Assembly (NCBI GenBank): GCA_022825235.1
Contig: JAJDYI010000041.1
Coordinates: 1 to 64,000 of the forward strand
DNA length: 64,000 nt
Source: Alphaproteobacteria bacterium
GTDB taxonomy: Bacteria > Pseudomonadota > Alphaproteobacteria > TMED109
Direction of reading: 5' to 3'
Shown: in pieces, positions 55,400 through 61,149 of the stretch
How the letters are laid out: the number at the start of each line of letters is the position of its first letter
Numbering within the stretch: position 1 is the first letter of the stretch
Program-made: the position numbers and the translations under genes
The notes under the pieces: generated by a model
Told to the model about the DNA's origin: nothing
The model's input: only the letters and a program-made list of their open reading frames with translations
Databases searched by the model: none

Positions 55400-56641
55400 C
55401 TACTCGCCGTTGCTGTTCCGCACAAGAAACATCCCCATTGAGCCGAAGAGAAGTGGCAACGTCGCATCGATCAGGATCCAGACCAGCGACGCGGTGTCAG
55501 CTCCGATCGCAGTGAACGCCGGCGAGAGAAGGTTGAACCAGTTCCATAGCATCAGGATGCCGACGGCCACGAAGCCGAAGAACTGCGTGTTGGCAATCAG
55601 GAATTCCCGCGTGACGGGCCCGCTGTCCGGTTCCCCGTCCACGCGGCGTTTGCGCGCATAGCTGAAGAGCAGGCCCAGCGCGATTCCCAGCACCATGAGG
55701 GGATTAAGAATGGCCCAAAGCGGACTGTAAGGCTGCGTCTCGCTGGATGTGTGAAAGAGCGGATCAGCGACGGTATGGACGGCAACCACGACCGCGAGCG
55801 CAAGCAGAAACATTCCACAGATACGATCGAGCATGGAAGGTCTCCCGTTGTGTGGCGTGCCTGCCACCTGCTCGCGACGATAGCAAGCGGCGCGCATCGT
55901 CGGCGCGCGCGCCGAACGGGCAGCGGCGACGGCTTGGTATACGTTCAGGATGCGTTCCGGGGGCGTGCCCGCGAACCAGAGGGCGAGGCACAGGCCGTTC
56001 CGCAGGCTCCGCCCGAGCCAGCCGTCCCGCCGGTAGCGCTCTGCTGAGGTGCGGATCGCGGCGCCCAGGAAGCAGAGCCGGCGCCGGCCGATGCGACGCA
56101 CGATGTCCACATCCTCCATGATGGGCAGGTCGCGGAAGCCGCCGATCTCGTCGAGCAGCGTGCGGGATATCAGGAGGCCCTGGTCACCGTACGGGAGTGC
56201 CAGTAGCCGGGACCGCAGATTTGCAAGGGCCGCGGTCCTGCGGGCCGGCCACGAATCTTCGTCGAACGCGAGGCGGAAGTACGCCGCCCGATGTCGGTGT
56301 TCCGGGGCAGTGACAAAGGCCCGGACCGTATCGGCCCACTCCGCGGGCAGCGACGAATCGGCATGCAGAATCAGGAGCCACGTACGTGACGCCAGCACAC
56401 AGCCCGCGCGGATCTGGGTGCCGCGTCCCCGGGGCGCCTTGGCGAAGCGGGCACCGAGTGCCCGGGCGTGGCTCGCCGTGGCAGCGTGATCGTGCGATTG
56501 GCCGTCGACCACCCAGACCTCGCCGGCCACGGGCGCCACCGATCGGAGCAACGGCTCCAGGATCCCCGAAGACTCGAGAGTGGGGATCACGACTGAGAGA
56601 TCGGCGATCGGTTCGGCGGTCGGTTGACGGTCGGCCGGCAC
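55400..56641 (-). CDS. TIGR04283-type glycosyltransferase fused in frame to a small membrane protein
   Basis: A 413-residue reading frame with two parts. Residues 1-235 are a family-2 glycosyltransferase (LSVVIPTLESSGILEPLL, EVWVVDGQSHDHA, GRGTQIRAGCV, LILHADSSLP, MEDVDIVRRIG) of the TIGR04283 type. The last 144 residues form a membrane protein with three to four hydrophobic segments, beginning at an in-frame ATG (55834) that has GGGAG eight bases upstream. The linker between is low in conservation. It could be a true fusion or two genes joined by loss of a stop. The GTG at 56641 is chosen because AGGAGG lies five bases upstream. Confidence 0.78.
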   Translation of the reverse strand: MPADRQPTAEPIADLSVVIPTLESSGILEPLLRSVAPVAGEVWVVDGQSHDHAATASHARALGARFAKAPRGRGTQIRAGCVLASRTWLLILHADSSLPAEWADTVRAFVTAPEHRHRAAYFRLAFDEDSWPARRTAALANLRSRLLALPYGDQGLLISRTLLDEIGGFRDLPIMEDVDIVRRIGRRRLCFLGAAIRTSAERYRRDGWLGRSLRNGLCLALWFAGTPPERILNVYQAVAAARSARAPTMRAACYRREQVAGTPHNGRPSMLDRICGMFLLALAVVVAVHTVADPLFHTSSETQPYSPLWAILNPLMVLGIALGLLFSYARKRRVDGEPDSGPVTREFLIANTQFFGFVAVGILMLWNWFNLLSPAFTAIGADTASLVWILIDATLPLLFGSMGMFLVRNSNGE

Positions 56642-56942
56642 GACATCCTCCTCGCCGCAATGTCCGGTCCGTACCTCGGCCCGCCCGGATGGCGGTACCC
56701 GGGGTGCAGCGATCTGGTCGGTCCGGGAAACCCGGCCGGGGCGCCTGATTGTGCCAGTTTGTCGACCGGCAGGGTGCCGCTGCTTGAATTCCGCCGAGAT
56801 GTTCCACCTGCGCCTGCGTGCGCCTGGCACGAAGCTGTCTGCACGTGCACCTGTCTCGGCTCCAGGACGTGTCCCGCCCAGTTCAGTCGGCGGGGGCTTG
56901 CACCGGATGTTCTTGCTATGATCTTTCCTTGGTGCCTATTTT

Positions 56943-56957: not shown

Positions 56958-58067
56958 ATGAACAAGCGAGTGGAGCGTGGAGGGATCCGGTTCGCGCCGC
57001 CAGATGATTCACCTGGGCGGCGGCGCGGTCGCGGGGCGGTCAGCAATCGCAGCGGGCGCTTTGAGACGCATGTTCGCAAGGTCGATGCGATCGCGCTCGC
57101 CGAATGTCCGCCACCACCGTCCGTCGAGACCACGGTCCAGATCAGCGAGACCCGGACCGGGCTGACTTGGAACCAGTCGCCGGATGTCGACTTCGATCGC
57201 TCGGTGAACCCCTACCAGGGTTGCGAGCACGGCTGCATCTACTGCTACGCGCGCCCGACTCATGCCTATCTCGGGCTGTCCCCGGGCATCGATTTCGAAA
57301 CCCGGATCTTTGCCAAGGAAGCGACACCGGAGCGATTGCGCGAGACGTTCGCCCAGCGGGGCTACCAGCCGGCGACGATCTCGCTCGGGGCCAACACCGA
57401 TCCGTACCAGCCGACTGAACAGAAGCTGCAGCTTACGCGCCGTATTCTGGAATGCCTGCTGGGACACCGGCACCCGGTCAGCATCGTGACCAAGTCGGCG
57501 CGCGTGCTCCGCGATCTGGACCTGCTCGGGGAACTGGCAGCCATGAACCTGGTCCGCGTGCTGGTGTCGATCACCACGCTGGACCACCGGCTGGCCAATC
57601 GCATGGAACCGAGGGCCAGCACGCCGGCGCGGCGGCTAGAAGCCGTGGCGCGACTGCACGATGCCGGGGTGCCCGTGGTCGTGATGAACGCACCGATCAT
57701 CCCGGGCCTCACGGACATGGAGATCGAGCGCCTGGTGGCGGCAGCGGCCGACGCCGGGGCCGAGTCGGCGCAGTACGTTCTGCTCAGGTTGCCGGGCGAG
57801 GTGGCTGAGCTGTTCGAGGAGTGGCTCCACGCGCACGTTCCGGGCGCGGCCAGACGGGTTCTCGCGCTCGTTCGCGAGACGCGGGGGGGAGACCTGTACC
57901 AGCCGCAATTCGGTCTTCGGCGGCGCGGCAGCGGCCCTTATGCGGAACTGATCCGAACCCGGTTCCGGGCGGCGGTGCGGCGCCACGGTCTGGATGCCCG
58001 GATGCCTGATCTGGATGCGAGCCGGTTTCGCCCGGACCCGGCGCAGGGAGAGCTGGCGCTCACCTGA
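56958..58067 (+). CDS. PA0069-family radical SAM protein
   Basis: A 369-residue radical SAM protein. The cluster motif is CEHGCIYCYAR, within NPYQGCEHGCIYCYARPTH (residues about 86-104), and the family pattern continues with ISLGANTDPYQPTE, VSIVTKSARVLRDLDLL and a C-terminal YQPQFGLRRRGSGPYA. It is related to spore photoproduct lyase-like proteins, but the function of the PA0069 group is unknown. The ATG at 56958 follows an extended -10 element directly. Its last bases overlap the end of ubiA on the other strand by 8 bases. Confidence 0.9.
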   Translation: MNKRVERGGIRFAPPDDSPGRRRGRGAVSNRSGRFETHVRKVDAIALAECPPPPSVETTVQISETRTGLTWNQSPDVDFDRSVNPYQGCEHGCIYCYARPTHAYLGLSPGIDFETRIFAKEATPERLRETFAQRGYQPATISLGANTDPYQPTEQKLQLTRRILECLLGHRHPVSIVTKSARVLRDLDLLGELAAMNLVRVLVSITTLDHRLANRMEPRASTPARRLEAVARLHDAGVPVVVMNAPIIPGLTDMEIERLVAAAADAGAESAQYVLLRLPGEVAELFEEWLHAHVPGAARRVLALVRETRGGDLYQPQFGLRRRGSGPYAELIRTRFRAAVRRHGLDARMPDLDASRFRPDPAQGELALT

Positions 58068-58962
58068 CGAATGCGCTGCTCGCGAGCACGAGGTCGGTCG
58101 CCAGTCCAACAAACCACACCAACGCGGCGCGATGGGCCCCGCGGAAGGCGATCCAGCAAGACGCGGCGTCTTCCAGGTCGACGGTGGCGGTGTACCAGGC
58201 GGACACGACACTGAAACCCGCGAGCCCCAGCCAGGCCGCAGGGCCGGCACCGGTGACCGCGAGGGCAGCCGCAAACACGGCGGCGGCGATGACATACGCG
58301 CCGGCCACGAACCAGCGTCCCCGGAGACCGAGCCGTACGGCGGCCGAACGGATTCCCGTCGTCACGTCGTCGGCGCGGTCCTGATAGGCGTACAGCGTGT
58401 CGTAGCCGATCGTCCAGAGGATGCAGCCGGCATAGAGCAAGAGGGCTCCTGCCGTCGGCCAGCTGCCGGTGGCGGCCGACCAGCCGACCAGGGCTCCCCA
58501 GTTGAAGGTGAACCCGAGCCAGACCTGCGGCCACCACGTGAATCGCTTCGCCAGCGGGTAGAGCAGCACCAGCGGCAGCGAACCGGGCACCAGCCACACG
58601 GCGGCGGGCGGCAGCAGCAGCAGGAGGGCGGCGGCAGCGATCACGTGGACTGCGATGAACGCACACGCTGTACCGGTCCCGATCCGCCCGGCGGCCAGCG
58701 GCCGGTTGCGGGTGCGCGCCACCGAAGCATCCAGTTCGCGGTCCATGAGATCGTTCCACGCGCAGCCGCCGGCCCGGGCGAGTGCGGCGCCGGTCAGCAG
58801 GATGACGCAGAGCGCGGCCAACTCGGCCGGAGCCGGCCGAGCCAGTGCCGCCCCCCATGCGCACGGCCAGGCCAAGAGCCAGATCCCGATGGGACGGTCG
58901 TACCGGCCGAGTGCCACGAGGTCGGCCAGCAGGGCAGTGGGGCGGTGGTTCGCGGGAGACAT
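58060..58962 (-). CDS. ubiA: 4-hydroxybenzoate polyprenyltransferase
   Basis: A 300-residue inner-membrane prenyltransferase for ubiquinone synthesis, with about eight hydrophobic segments. The two Asp-rich prenyl-diphosphate sites are present: NDLMDRELD (residues 70-78) and YAYQDRADD. It begins ALGRYDRPIGIWLLAWPC, typical of UbiA. The ATG at 58962 gives the normal length; the frame is open far upstream, but that part has no homology and antisense-like composition. A position near an rsmE-like gene and gshA is a common alphaproteobacterial arrangement. Confidence 0.94.
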   Translation of the reverse strand: MSPANHRPTALLADLVALGRYDRPIGIWLLAWPCAWGAALARPAPAELAALCVILLTGAALARAGGCAWNDLMDRELDASVARTRNRPLAAGRIGTGTACAFIAVHVIAAAALLLLLPPAAVWLVPGSLPLVLLYPLAKRFTWWPQVWLGFTFNWGALVGWSAATGSWPTAGALLLYAGCILWTIGYDTLYAYQDRADDVTTGIRSAAVRLGLRGRWFVAGAYVIAAAVFAAALAVTGAGPAAWLGLAGFSVVSAWYTATVDLEDAASCWIAFRGAHRAALVWFVGLATDLVLASSAFVR

Positions 58963-59110
58963 GCGCGCATGGGTAGGGGGCCGGCGCACGTGGTGCAACC
59001 GGCCGGCCTGGGGGCCATCCTTCGAATTCCTGGGGGCCCGCGTGCCGGAGCCCTCGGGCGCGCTGCCGGAAGGCAGGTCTTCACGTGGTCGAGCGACCGG
59101 AAGGACGACA

Positions 59111-59635
59111 ATGACAAAGCTACGAGAGACCGGTGGCAGCTGGCTGCTGTGGACCCCCACGGCCGACTCGGTGCCGGCGCTTCGGTACGTCGCCGAGTGG
59201 GGGGTTGAACGCATCATCTGCGTCACCCCTTCTGCGGACACAGTCCCGCTGCTGGATCTCGCCACGGCGCGGGATGCCCTCGAGGAAGCAGGACAGCGGA
59301 GTTCCCGCGACGGTTCGCCCGAAATCGGCCAGTGGGTATCGCTTTCCATGGCGCTCGGAGCGGTGCGTGAAGCCGACCGAACCCTGTTCGTGCTGGACGA
59401 ATTGCACGGGGGTCCTGTCTTGGCCGACGCTTGCCGCGGGCTGCCGTCCGGCAGGATCGCTCTGCTGGTCGGCCCACGAGCCGGAATCGGATCACGGGAA
59501 CGGGCCGTGCTTGGTGCAGCGAAGCCCGCAGTGCGACACGTCACGCTGGGCCCAAGACTGTTCTCGCCGGAGGCGGCGGCCTGCGCGGCGGTGGCGGTCG
59601 TGCAACATCTTGCCGGGCTGGAGCCGGACGCCTGA
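59111..59635 (+). CDS. Short RsmE-like (16S rRNA m3U1498 methyltransferase) protein
   Basis: A 174-residue protein resembling the C-terminal SPOUT domain of RsmE: EWGVERIICV, ALEEAGQRSSRDGSPEI, a GPRAGIGSRE where RsmE has GPEGG-F-S-x-x-E, and LGPRLFSPEAAA where RsmE has LG-x-R-I-L-R-x-E-T-A. The N-terminal PUA-like domain, about 70 residues, is absent; only 148 bases separate the gene from ubiA, so it is not upstream. The knot motifs that bind SAM are altered. It may be a degenerate copy with a new or lost function. The context (ubiA, gshA) fits rsmE. GGAAGGA precedes the ATG. Confidence 0.68.
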   Translation: MTKLRETGGSWLLWTPTADSVPALRYVAEWGVERIICVTPSADTVPLLDLATARDALEEAGQRSSRDGSPEIGQWVSLSMALGAVREADRTLFVLDELHGGPVLADACRGLPSGRIALLVGPRAGIGSRERAVLGAAKPAVRHVTLGPRLFSPEAAACAAVAVVQHLAGLEPDA

Positions 59636-59787: not shown

Positions 59788-61149
59788 ATGGTCGAAACGC
59801 CTTCGCCCGCTCCGGCGGTCGGCCATGTTCGCGAGCTGGTCGAGTGGCTCGAAGCGGGCTGCAAGGCGCCGGCGGACTGGCGGATCGGCACTGAGCACGA
59901 GAAGTTCGTGTATGTCGCCGAGGGCTGCGAGCGTGCTCCCTACGGCGGACCCACCGGCATCCAGGCGGTCCTGGACCGGCTGGCGGCCGGCGGATGGGAG
60001 CGCGTCGAAGAGACCGGTCGGGTGGTCGGACTGCGCAAGGGTCGCCAGTCCGTCACGCTGGAGCCCGGCGGCCAGCTGGAGCTTTCCGGGGCGCCGCTCG
60101 CAACCCTGCACGAGACATGCAGCGAGATTAACGACCATCTCTACGAGCTCCGGGCCATCGGCGATGCCCTCGGGCTCTTTTTCGTCGGGATCGGGTCGGA
60201 CCCGCTGACACCAGTGGACCGCGTCCCCCTCATGCCGAAGGGGCGCTACGGAATCATGCGGCGATACATGCCGACCCGTGGTGCGCTCGGTCTCGACATG
60301 ATGATGAACACCGCGACGGTGCAGGTGAACCTCGACTTTTCGGACGAGCGCGACATGGTCCGAAAATTCCGCACGGCCTTGGCACTGCAGCCCATCCTCG
60401 CCGCCCTGCTCGCCAATTCGCCGTTCCGGGGAGGTCGTCCGTCCGGGTACCTGAGCTGGCGCAGCCACGCCTGGTCGGACACGGACCCCGACCGCTGCGG
60501 GATCCCGGAGTTCGTGTTCGAGGACGGCATGGGGTTCGAGCGCTGGACCGACTACGCGCTAGACGTGCCCATGTACTTCGTCTACCGGGACGGGCGCTAC
60601 ATCGACGTCGCCGGGATTCCGTTCCGCCGGTTCCTGGCGGGACAGCTGGACGCGCTGCCGGGGGAACGGCCCTCGCTGCGGGACTGGGAAGATCACCTCA
60701 CGACGATCTTTACCGAGACCCGGCTCAAGCGGTTCCTCGAGATGCGAAGCGCCGATGCCGGGCCGTGGAAGCGGCTGTGCGCCCTGCCCGCACTTTGGAC
60801 CGGTGTGCTGTACGACGCGATGGCCCTCGACGCGGCCGAGGATTTGGTCCGGTCGTGGGGACCGGAAGTTCGAGAAGAACTGTTTCTCGAGGCTCCGCGG
60901 CGTGGGCTGGGCCTCGCAGTCGCCGGGCGGCCGCTGCTCGCGGTGGCGGCCGAACTGGTCGAAATTGCCCGCGGCGGCCTGAGGCGGCGGGCACGCCTGA
61001 ACCCCGCGGGCGACGACGAGAGCGGTTTTCTCGATGTCCTGACGACCATCGTGGAGCAGGGCAGCACGCCTGCCGAGGCACTTCTCGATACGTGGCGTTC
61101 GCGCGGACGGGACGGGCTGGGTCGGCTCCTGGTGGACGAGGCCTACTGA
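59788..61149 (+). CDS. gshA: Glutamate-cysteine ligase
   Basis: A 453-residue enzyme for the first step of glutathione synthesis, of the plant/alphaproteobacterial type. Visible motifs are RIGTEHEKFVYV, VTLEPGGQLELSGAPL, MPKGRYGIMRRYMP, MMMNTATVQVNLDF and NSPFRGGRPSGYLSWR. The ATG at 59788 has AGGA about six bases upstream and gives the family length; the long frame upstream is not conserved. It follows the RsmE-like gene. gshB is not in the window. A ChaC-like glutathione-degrading enzyme is encoded at 22.8 kb. Confidence 0.95.
   Translation: MVETPSPAPAVGHVRELVEWLEAGCKAPADWRIGTEHEKFVYVAEGCERAPYGGPTGIQAVLDRLAAGGWERVEETGRVVGLRKGRQSVTLEPGGQLELSGAPLATLHETCSEINDHLYELRAIGDALGLFFVGIGSDPLTPVDRVPLMPKGRYGIMRRYMPTRGALGLDMMMNTATVQVNLDFSDERDMVRKFRTALALQPILAALLANSPFRGGRPSGYLSWRSHAWSDTDPDRCGIPEFVFEDGMGFERWTDYALDVPMYFVYRDGRYIDVAGIPFRRFLAGQLDALPGERPSLRDWEDHLTTIFTETRLKRFLEMRSADAGPWKRLCALPALWTGVLYDAMALDAAEDLVRSWGPEVREELFLEAPRRGLGLAVAGRPLLAVAAELVEIARGGLRRRARLNPAGDDESGFLDVLTTIVEQGSTPAEALLDTWRSRGRDGLGRLLVDEAY

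Follow-up and report, generated by a model that had tools for sequence, protein, structure and literature searches.

A SPOUT-only RsmE homologue lacking the PUA domain and the proposed catalytic residues at the rsmE position of an alphaproteobacterial genus

The stretch of DNA analysed here (termed the window; 64,000 nucleotides, contig JAJDYI010000041.1 of an alphaproteobacterium of the TMED109 lineage) carries at 59111..59635, on the forward strand, an open reading frame of 174 aa plus stop that starts with ATG and encodes a homologue of RsmE consisting of the SPOUT domain only, without PUA domain (PF04452, E 5e-10). A Shine-Dalgarno-like GGAAGGA is present at 59099..59105 on the same strand, and a purine-rich counterpart precedes the same ATG in all seven genomes of the genus. 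The divergent neighbour is ubiA (58060..58962, reverse strand; TIGR01474 above cut-off), which marks the usual rsmE position, and the downstream neighbour is gshA for glutamate-cysteine ligase (59788..61149, forward strand; TIGR01436 above cut-off). These two matches confirm the sequence-only reading of this DNA, which had placed the gene at the rsmE position between ubiA and gshA. For comparison, 54 ordinary rsmE loci were used, which are 56 loci minus two duplicates (L080, identical to L020, and L081, identical to L004) and represent the best-scoring loci of the panel and class searches described below rather than a random sample. Within flanks of about 1.5 kb, a divergent ubiA lies directly upstream in 47/54 of these loci and a gshA homologue lies downstream on the same strand in 23/54; because the neighbours are the same, the window gene occupies the rsmE position. 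In the window, 148 nt separate the ATG of the short gene from the start codon of ubiA; ubiA lies 112–152 nt upstream in 7/7 genus genomes, and gshA follows the short gene in six of them, the contig of the seventh stopping there. On the far side of ubiA, a reverse-strand ORF at 55400-56830 encodes a TIGR04283 glycosyltransferase domain (residues 78–298) and has a long C-terminal part that looks hydrophobic on inspection and lacks an NCBIfam match; judging from this arrangement, the product may be a fusion of a glycosyltransferase with a membrane protein.

PF04452, the RsmE-type SPOUT domain, is the single Pfam family found in the window protein, with residues 24–165 aligned to profile positions 23–165 (39.6 bits, above cut-off), so that the match runs from profile position 23 to the end. 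NCBIfam RsmE equivalogs align with the C-terminal part only; the best of these, NF008696, is matched at positions 102–243 of 248 with 64.3 bits against a cut-off of 234, TIGR00046 scores 18.7 against a cut-off of 41, and the protein stays far below every RsmE equivalog cut-off scored. All seven short forms of the genus match NF008696 (best E 1.6e-19). The window gene is a SPOUT-only RsmE homologue that begins just past the expected PUA position, as had been read from the sequence. Pfam and NCBIfam gave no TrmL or RlmH family match for this protein. As its score exceeds the Pfam cut-off, annotation could still call the short form RsmE. The proposed search for an intact rsmE elsewhere in the same genome (3.85 Mb, 96% complete) returned the window gene as the sole PF04452 match at E <= 0.001.

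PUA_4 (PF20260) was not found by Pfam in the window protein, and at E <= 0.001 it is absent from all seven genus genomes, marginal matches (E 0.08) occurring in G003 and G004 on contigs other than that of the short gene. PUA_4 is above cut-off in 30/34 non-genus genomes. Because the gap from ubiA to the ATG is only 112–152 nt, there is no room upstream for the roughly 75 residues of a PUA domain. A split gene, or relocation of the PUA domain to another locus, was considered and is rejected at the sensitivity of PF20260. As far as this profile can tell, the PUA domain has been lost, not moved.

Distribution of the short form was analysed in a panel of 41 genomes searched with PF04452, made up of the window's own genome, six further genomes of its genus, 18 from the family and 16 from the class. 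In 7/7 genus genomes, PF04452 is matched by a single copy at E 2e-8 to 4e-12, beginning at profile position 22–26. Other family members carry an ordinary-scoring RsmE in 15/18 cases (E 6e-33 to 3e-38); the three family genomes without a match are 59–82% complete. The class members all match (16/16), G026 through a contig-end fragment only. The short forms have 170 or 174 aa and their own stop codon in 7/7 genus genomes, and the six other orthologues are 62–82% identical to the window protein, sharing its ATG and 168 gap-free codons (these six were aligned as trimmed at the match edges, with at most two C-terminal residues missing). Truncation of the window gene by a contig end or by assembly is rejected, as the gene is internal to a 69 kb contig and a stop codon is present in 7/7. 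Nor does PF04452 find a second, intact rsmE in the seven genus genomes (92–97% complete), in which the usual position is occupied.

A profile built from the seven short forms matched 7 of 28 genomes of the order, all genus members, beyond E 1e-90; among the matches listed from 385 class genomes, only four genus members exceeded E 1e-90, and the best match outside the genus (E 1.9e-19) was an ordinary RsmE. Accordingly, no short form outside the genus was seen among the 385 class genomes, in a loose first look, or the 28 order genomes. In a wider survey of the class, again a loose first look, 358/387 genomes match PF04452, indicating that RsmE, for which a PUA-plus-SPOUT architecture is described, occurs widely across the class. 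The 29 genomes without a first match comprise two genus members missed by the loose look, 18 that were re-searched and nine that were left out. All 18 re-searched genomes, whose completeness is at least 90%, still lack a PF04452 match; these are G043, G051, G078, G082, G086, G207, G101, G107, G143, G153 and eight others. RsmE may have been lost there, perhaps several times, or may lie in assembly gaps. Three low-scoring RsmEs outside the genus were inspected, of which G224 and G434 are contig-end fragments and G429 is two pieces in one frame; G278 (E 2e-28) is a further low scorer. The short gene gave no match for plasmid carriage, and no phage families were found. The genus has been recovered from metagenomes, sponges being at least one of the sources. 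The label of one metagenome bin, jk18x7, appears in a study of the microbiomes of Ircinia sponges (PMC9531527), and the other bins may be sponge-derived as well.

Within the genus, the short gene is under purifying selection and is not decaying. Across the 21 sequence pairs, dN/dS (Nei-Gojobori) ranges from 0.15 to 0.39, and dS reaches about 1. Over the 168 shared codons of the seven sequences, the coding frame contains no stop and has a median pN/pS of 0.42; each of the other five frames contains 10–22 stops over the seven sequences, and the medians of non-coding frames are 1.0–2.0, except for the antisense frame sharing third positions (0.47, 10 stops). The sequence-only reading had offered two explanations, a decayed rsmE and a repurposed SPOUT protein, and had proposed to compare selection pressure in related genomes. 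Decay is contradicted by that comparison, by a short form of constant length with its own stop in 7/7 and by motifs that are fixed throughout the genus (see below), and repurposing is the better supported of the two. Of the finding that the same reading had set against itself, a conserved short form with proven methylation, the conservation is present at the level of the genus (7/7 genomes).

A functionless remnant of rsmE on its way to disappearance is thus very improbable. Such a remnant would be consistent with the missing PUA domain and catalytic residues, and RsmE itself seems dispensable in some lineages, as suggested by the 18 re-searched class genomes and by the Mollicutes, only part of which keep RsmE (PMC4014445). 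Constraint on the short gene is also weaker than on its neighbours, for which pN/pS is 0.23 (ubiA, seven genomes) and 0.17 (gshA, six genomes). Nevertheless, no internal stop or indel has arisen in seven genomes at a synonymous divergence reaching about 1, and start, Shine-Dalgarno sequence and length are conserved together with the low dN/dS, which argues strongly against decay.

The two loops that bind SAM in RsmE are both altered. The GPRAG loop, replacing GPEGG, lies at 59471..59485 on the forward strand (residues 121–125), and the LGPRLFSPEAAA loop, replacing LGPRILRAETAA, lies at 59546..59581 on the same strand (residues 146–157). The earlier description of altered SAM motifs is correct in that GPRAGIG (residues 121–127) and LFSPEAAA (residues 150–157) are present, but the acidic residue of ILRxETA is retained (E154); from ILRAETAA to LFSPEAAA in the window protein, the actual changes are R to S, A to P and T to A. 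The seven short forms were aligned with E. coli RsmE and the 54 ordinary RsmEs, and positions are given in E. coli numbering. In the first loop, the first glycine is retained and the catalytic-site Glu196 is Arg in 7/7 short forms, ordinary RsmEs having Glu in 53/54. In the second, the adenine-binding backbone positions are kept, the catalytic Arg223 is Ser in 7/7 (Arg in 51/54 and Lys in 3/54 ordinary RsmEs), and Thr226 is Ala in 7/7 (Thr in 54/54). Gln141 is Arg in 7/7, where ordinary RsmEs have 45 Gln and 9 Val. Residues E29, corresponding to E. coli E101, and R149 are retained.

Q141 and E101 have been proposed as active-site residues, Q141 being contributed by the partner subunit (PMC1829167). 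In Legionella Lpg2936, Arg93, Glu198 and Arg225 face the methyl group of SAM, with a proposed action on U1498; E. coli RsmE bearing R223A, a substitution at the counterpart of Arg225, is inactive (PMC5699498). The short forms have Val or Ile at the position that presumably corresponds to Legionella Arg93, where ordinary RsmEs have Arg in 32/54 and are otherwise mixed. As judged by this alignment, the short forms have lost the side chains with a proposed role in acting on U1498. The first glycine of GPEGG makes a backbone contact to the SAM ribose in Lpg2936 (PMC5699498), and the backbone-contact positions kept in the short forms are G121 (Gly196 of Lpg2936), L146 (Leu219; 6/7), G147 (Gly220) and R149 (Arg222), the Leu224 position being Phe. 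The pocket of the short form could perhaps hold SAM or SAH via backbone contacts of the two retained loops.

Conservation within the genus is highest in the second loop. Residues 147–161, spanning this loop and the first part of the last helix, are invariant in 14/15 columns, compared with 85/168 overall; the values elsewhere are 29/60 for residues 1–60, 29/58 for residues 61–118 and 5/8 for the GPRxG loop (119–126). When the two loops are pooled, 19/23 columns are invariant versus 66/145 in the rest (Fisher p 0.0008), a value that is descriptive only, the limits having been set after seeing the alignment. Residues 147–161 are also the dimer interface, and their conservation may reflect dimerisation rather than a function of the pocket.

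Structural modelling and tree construction used 52 ordinary RsmEs, L010 and L023 being dropped for ambiguous residues. An AlphaFold2 monomer model based on the short forms together with the 52 ordinary SPOUT halves has a pLDDT of 86.1 and a pTM of 0.85. An alignment restricted to the seven short forms yields a poor model (pLDDT 59.8, residues 122–151 under 50), and the fold is therefore supported by homology and not by the short forms themselves. The solved structures nearest to the model are 14 RsmE-family entries (Z 17–21, 2.2–2.9 A over 159–168 residues), to which it aligns from chain residue ~63–74 to the end; among the matches listed, other SPOUT families have Z 12–15 and a Thermotoga RsmE-like entry 13.6. 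On the basis of this model, the knotted alpha/beta SPOUT fold appears to be kept. The short form likely dimerises through its last helix: this helix and the arginine of GPR are conserved in the short forms, and both are part of the interface in Lpg2936 (PMC5699498).

In the midpoint-rooted tree, the short clade stands alone on a very long stem of 3.7 changes per column, with support 100/100 and a shallow crown, the bootstrap being unsettled. This shape looks like a burst of change followed by constraint, with saturated branch lengths. The tree indicates no source RsmE lineage, and as it does not group the short clade with the RsmEs of the same family, descent from the latter rests on gene order.

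Pieces of 16S rRNA genes are present in three of the seven genus genomes (L056 on G006:C56, L057 on G005:C63 and L058 on G002:C19); all end near position 870–902, no more than about 90 bases from a contig end, with the 3' parts absent. The universal 16S 3' motif is found in 0/7 genus assemblies at up to two mismatches, so that the base at 1498 is unreadable. The truncations probably stem from breaks of the assembly within a conserved region. RsmI, which 2'-O-methylates C1402, was sought by TIGR00096 only and is matched in 0/7 genus genomes (G000–G006) and in 12/14 control genomes. The rsmI gene is conserved in nearly all bacteria, and as 16S positions 1400–1405 and 1496–1502 are named together as the P-site part of helix 44, RsmI and RsmE share this part as their target region (PMC5053481). 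A possible explanation is that RsmI was lost along with RsmE activity in the same P-site helix. RsmH is found in 7/7 genus genomes, and KsgA in 7/7 at E <= 0.001 and in 6/7 above cut-off; in G006 (92% complete), KsgA appears as weak partial matches only (best E 4e-5), which may be due to assembly loss.

Lacking both the PUA domain and the side chains proposed for U1498, the short protein is very probably no longer a U1498 methyltransferase, and U1498 is likely unmodified in these bacteria. Some residual activity is possible as E29 and R149 are kept. The opposite view, that this is a minimal working RsmE, supposes that another protein or the ribosomal context replaces the PUA domain and that the altered pocket methylates U1498, or a nearby 30S uridine, by modified chemistry. 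Its appeal lies in the location of the gene at the rsmE position, its status as the only RsmE homologue in 7/7 genomes, the purifying selection and the retention of most SAM backbone contacts and of the dimer arginine; in addition, TrmL and RlmH are SPOUT-only methyltransferases (PMC9508554). These features are outweighed by the replacement in 7/7 of Glu and Arg, the proposed catalytic residues, and of the Thr present in all ordinary RsmEs, by the inactivity of E. coli R223A and by the requirement of E. coli RsmE for its N-terminal PUA-like domain in methylation (PMC9508554). A minimal RsmE of this type is therefore improbable.

The evidence as a whole is best explained by a SPOUT protein without PUA domain that was repurposed in place, is no longer a U1498 methyltransferase and uses its pocket for another job, and this reading is probably correct. 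The ancestral rsmE of the ubiA locus would have been converted in place into a different protein, which is the only RsmE homologue detected in the genus. Loss of the PUA domain, which grips the 30S subunit, and of the U1498-acting side chains would have ended methylation of U1498. The short protein would still fold as a knotted SPOUT and dimerise via the last helix, and might still hold SAM or SAH. The recharged and conserved pocket, with Arg in place of the GPEGG Glu, Arg at Q141 and Ser-Pro at the catalytic Arg, would serve the other job, most likely on another substrate or in a non-catalytic role, e.g., as a 30S/RNA assembly or sensor protein. Two observations are less favourable to this repurposing, namely that the short gene is less constrained than ubiA and gshA and that the GPRxG loop is not exceptionally conserved.

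One branch of this explanation, which shares part of its likelihood, specifies a SPOUT-only methyltransferase that retains SAM chemistry and acts on a new substrate (tRNA, 23S rRNA or protein), catalysis depending on a new residue of the conserved pocket. Such an enzyme is consistent with the peak of conservation in the region of the second SAM loop and with the mostly retained SAM-contact backbone positions; moreover, in SPOUT-only enzymes variation of the SPOUT domain and the mode of dimerisation alone suffice for new specificity, and Sfm1 is tabulated as a protein methyltransferase (PMC9508554). However, the conserved loop region doubles as the dimer interface, and the net charge of the short forms, -1 to -3, gives no clear hint of a basic surface for binding RNA, values among ordinary SPOUT halves extending from -8 to +10. 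This specific branch is thus tentative, and somewhat unlikely when taken by itself. A broader scenario, in which the genus rebuilt the methylation of its P-site helix such that RsmE became a PUA-less SPOUT protein with a new function, RsmI disappeared and translation starts without m3U1498 and Cm1402, is doubtful.

If true, repurposing at the ubiA locus would offer a clear example of an enzyme of ribosome modification that took on a different function without leaving its locus, as a single copy and under selection. It would also provide a natural experiment on the need for m3U1498, as seven species appear to manage without the canonical enzyme. A search of open-licence PMC papers yielded no paper on a PUA-less or inactive RsmE. 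According to a passage in PMC1829167, inactive SPOUT proteins were unreported as of 2007 but conceivable, and one yeast candidate was named.

Among known systems, human MRM3 and T. brucei mt-LAF5/6 are SPOUT proteins like the short form, and have been observed as SPOUT dimers bound to pre-ribosomes in which no target hydroxyl is positioned for methylation (PMC12123411, PMC8316566). By analogy, a role of the short protein in ribosome assembly is thinkable; MRM3 differs from it in having an extra N-terminal domain, in belonging to the SpoU family and in being an active enzyme, and offers a loose functional precedent only. TrmL/YibK and RlmH resemble the short form in architecture, TrmL and RlmH having a SPOUT domain without further domain (PMC9508554), and TrmL/YibK chains match the short-form model at Z ~12.5. 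The model is nearer to RsmE (Z 17–21) than to TrmL, and sequence-level matches to TrmL or RlmH are absent. RsmE itself (PF20260 PUA_4 plus PF04452; COG1385), the 16S rRNA (uracil1498-N3)-methyltransferase whose target base lies in the decoding centre of the ribosome, differs from the short form in possessing the PUA domain, in the Glu, Arg and Thr that are replaced by Arg, Ser and Ala at near-invariant RsmE sites, and in two residues of the K-x-x-R region that, by alignment, are deleted in the short form. Nevertheless, RsmE is the system with which the short form shares the ubiA-adjacent position, homology of the SPOUT half, the modelled fold, the glycines of the SAM loops, the arginine of GPR and the acidic residue before the last helix.
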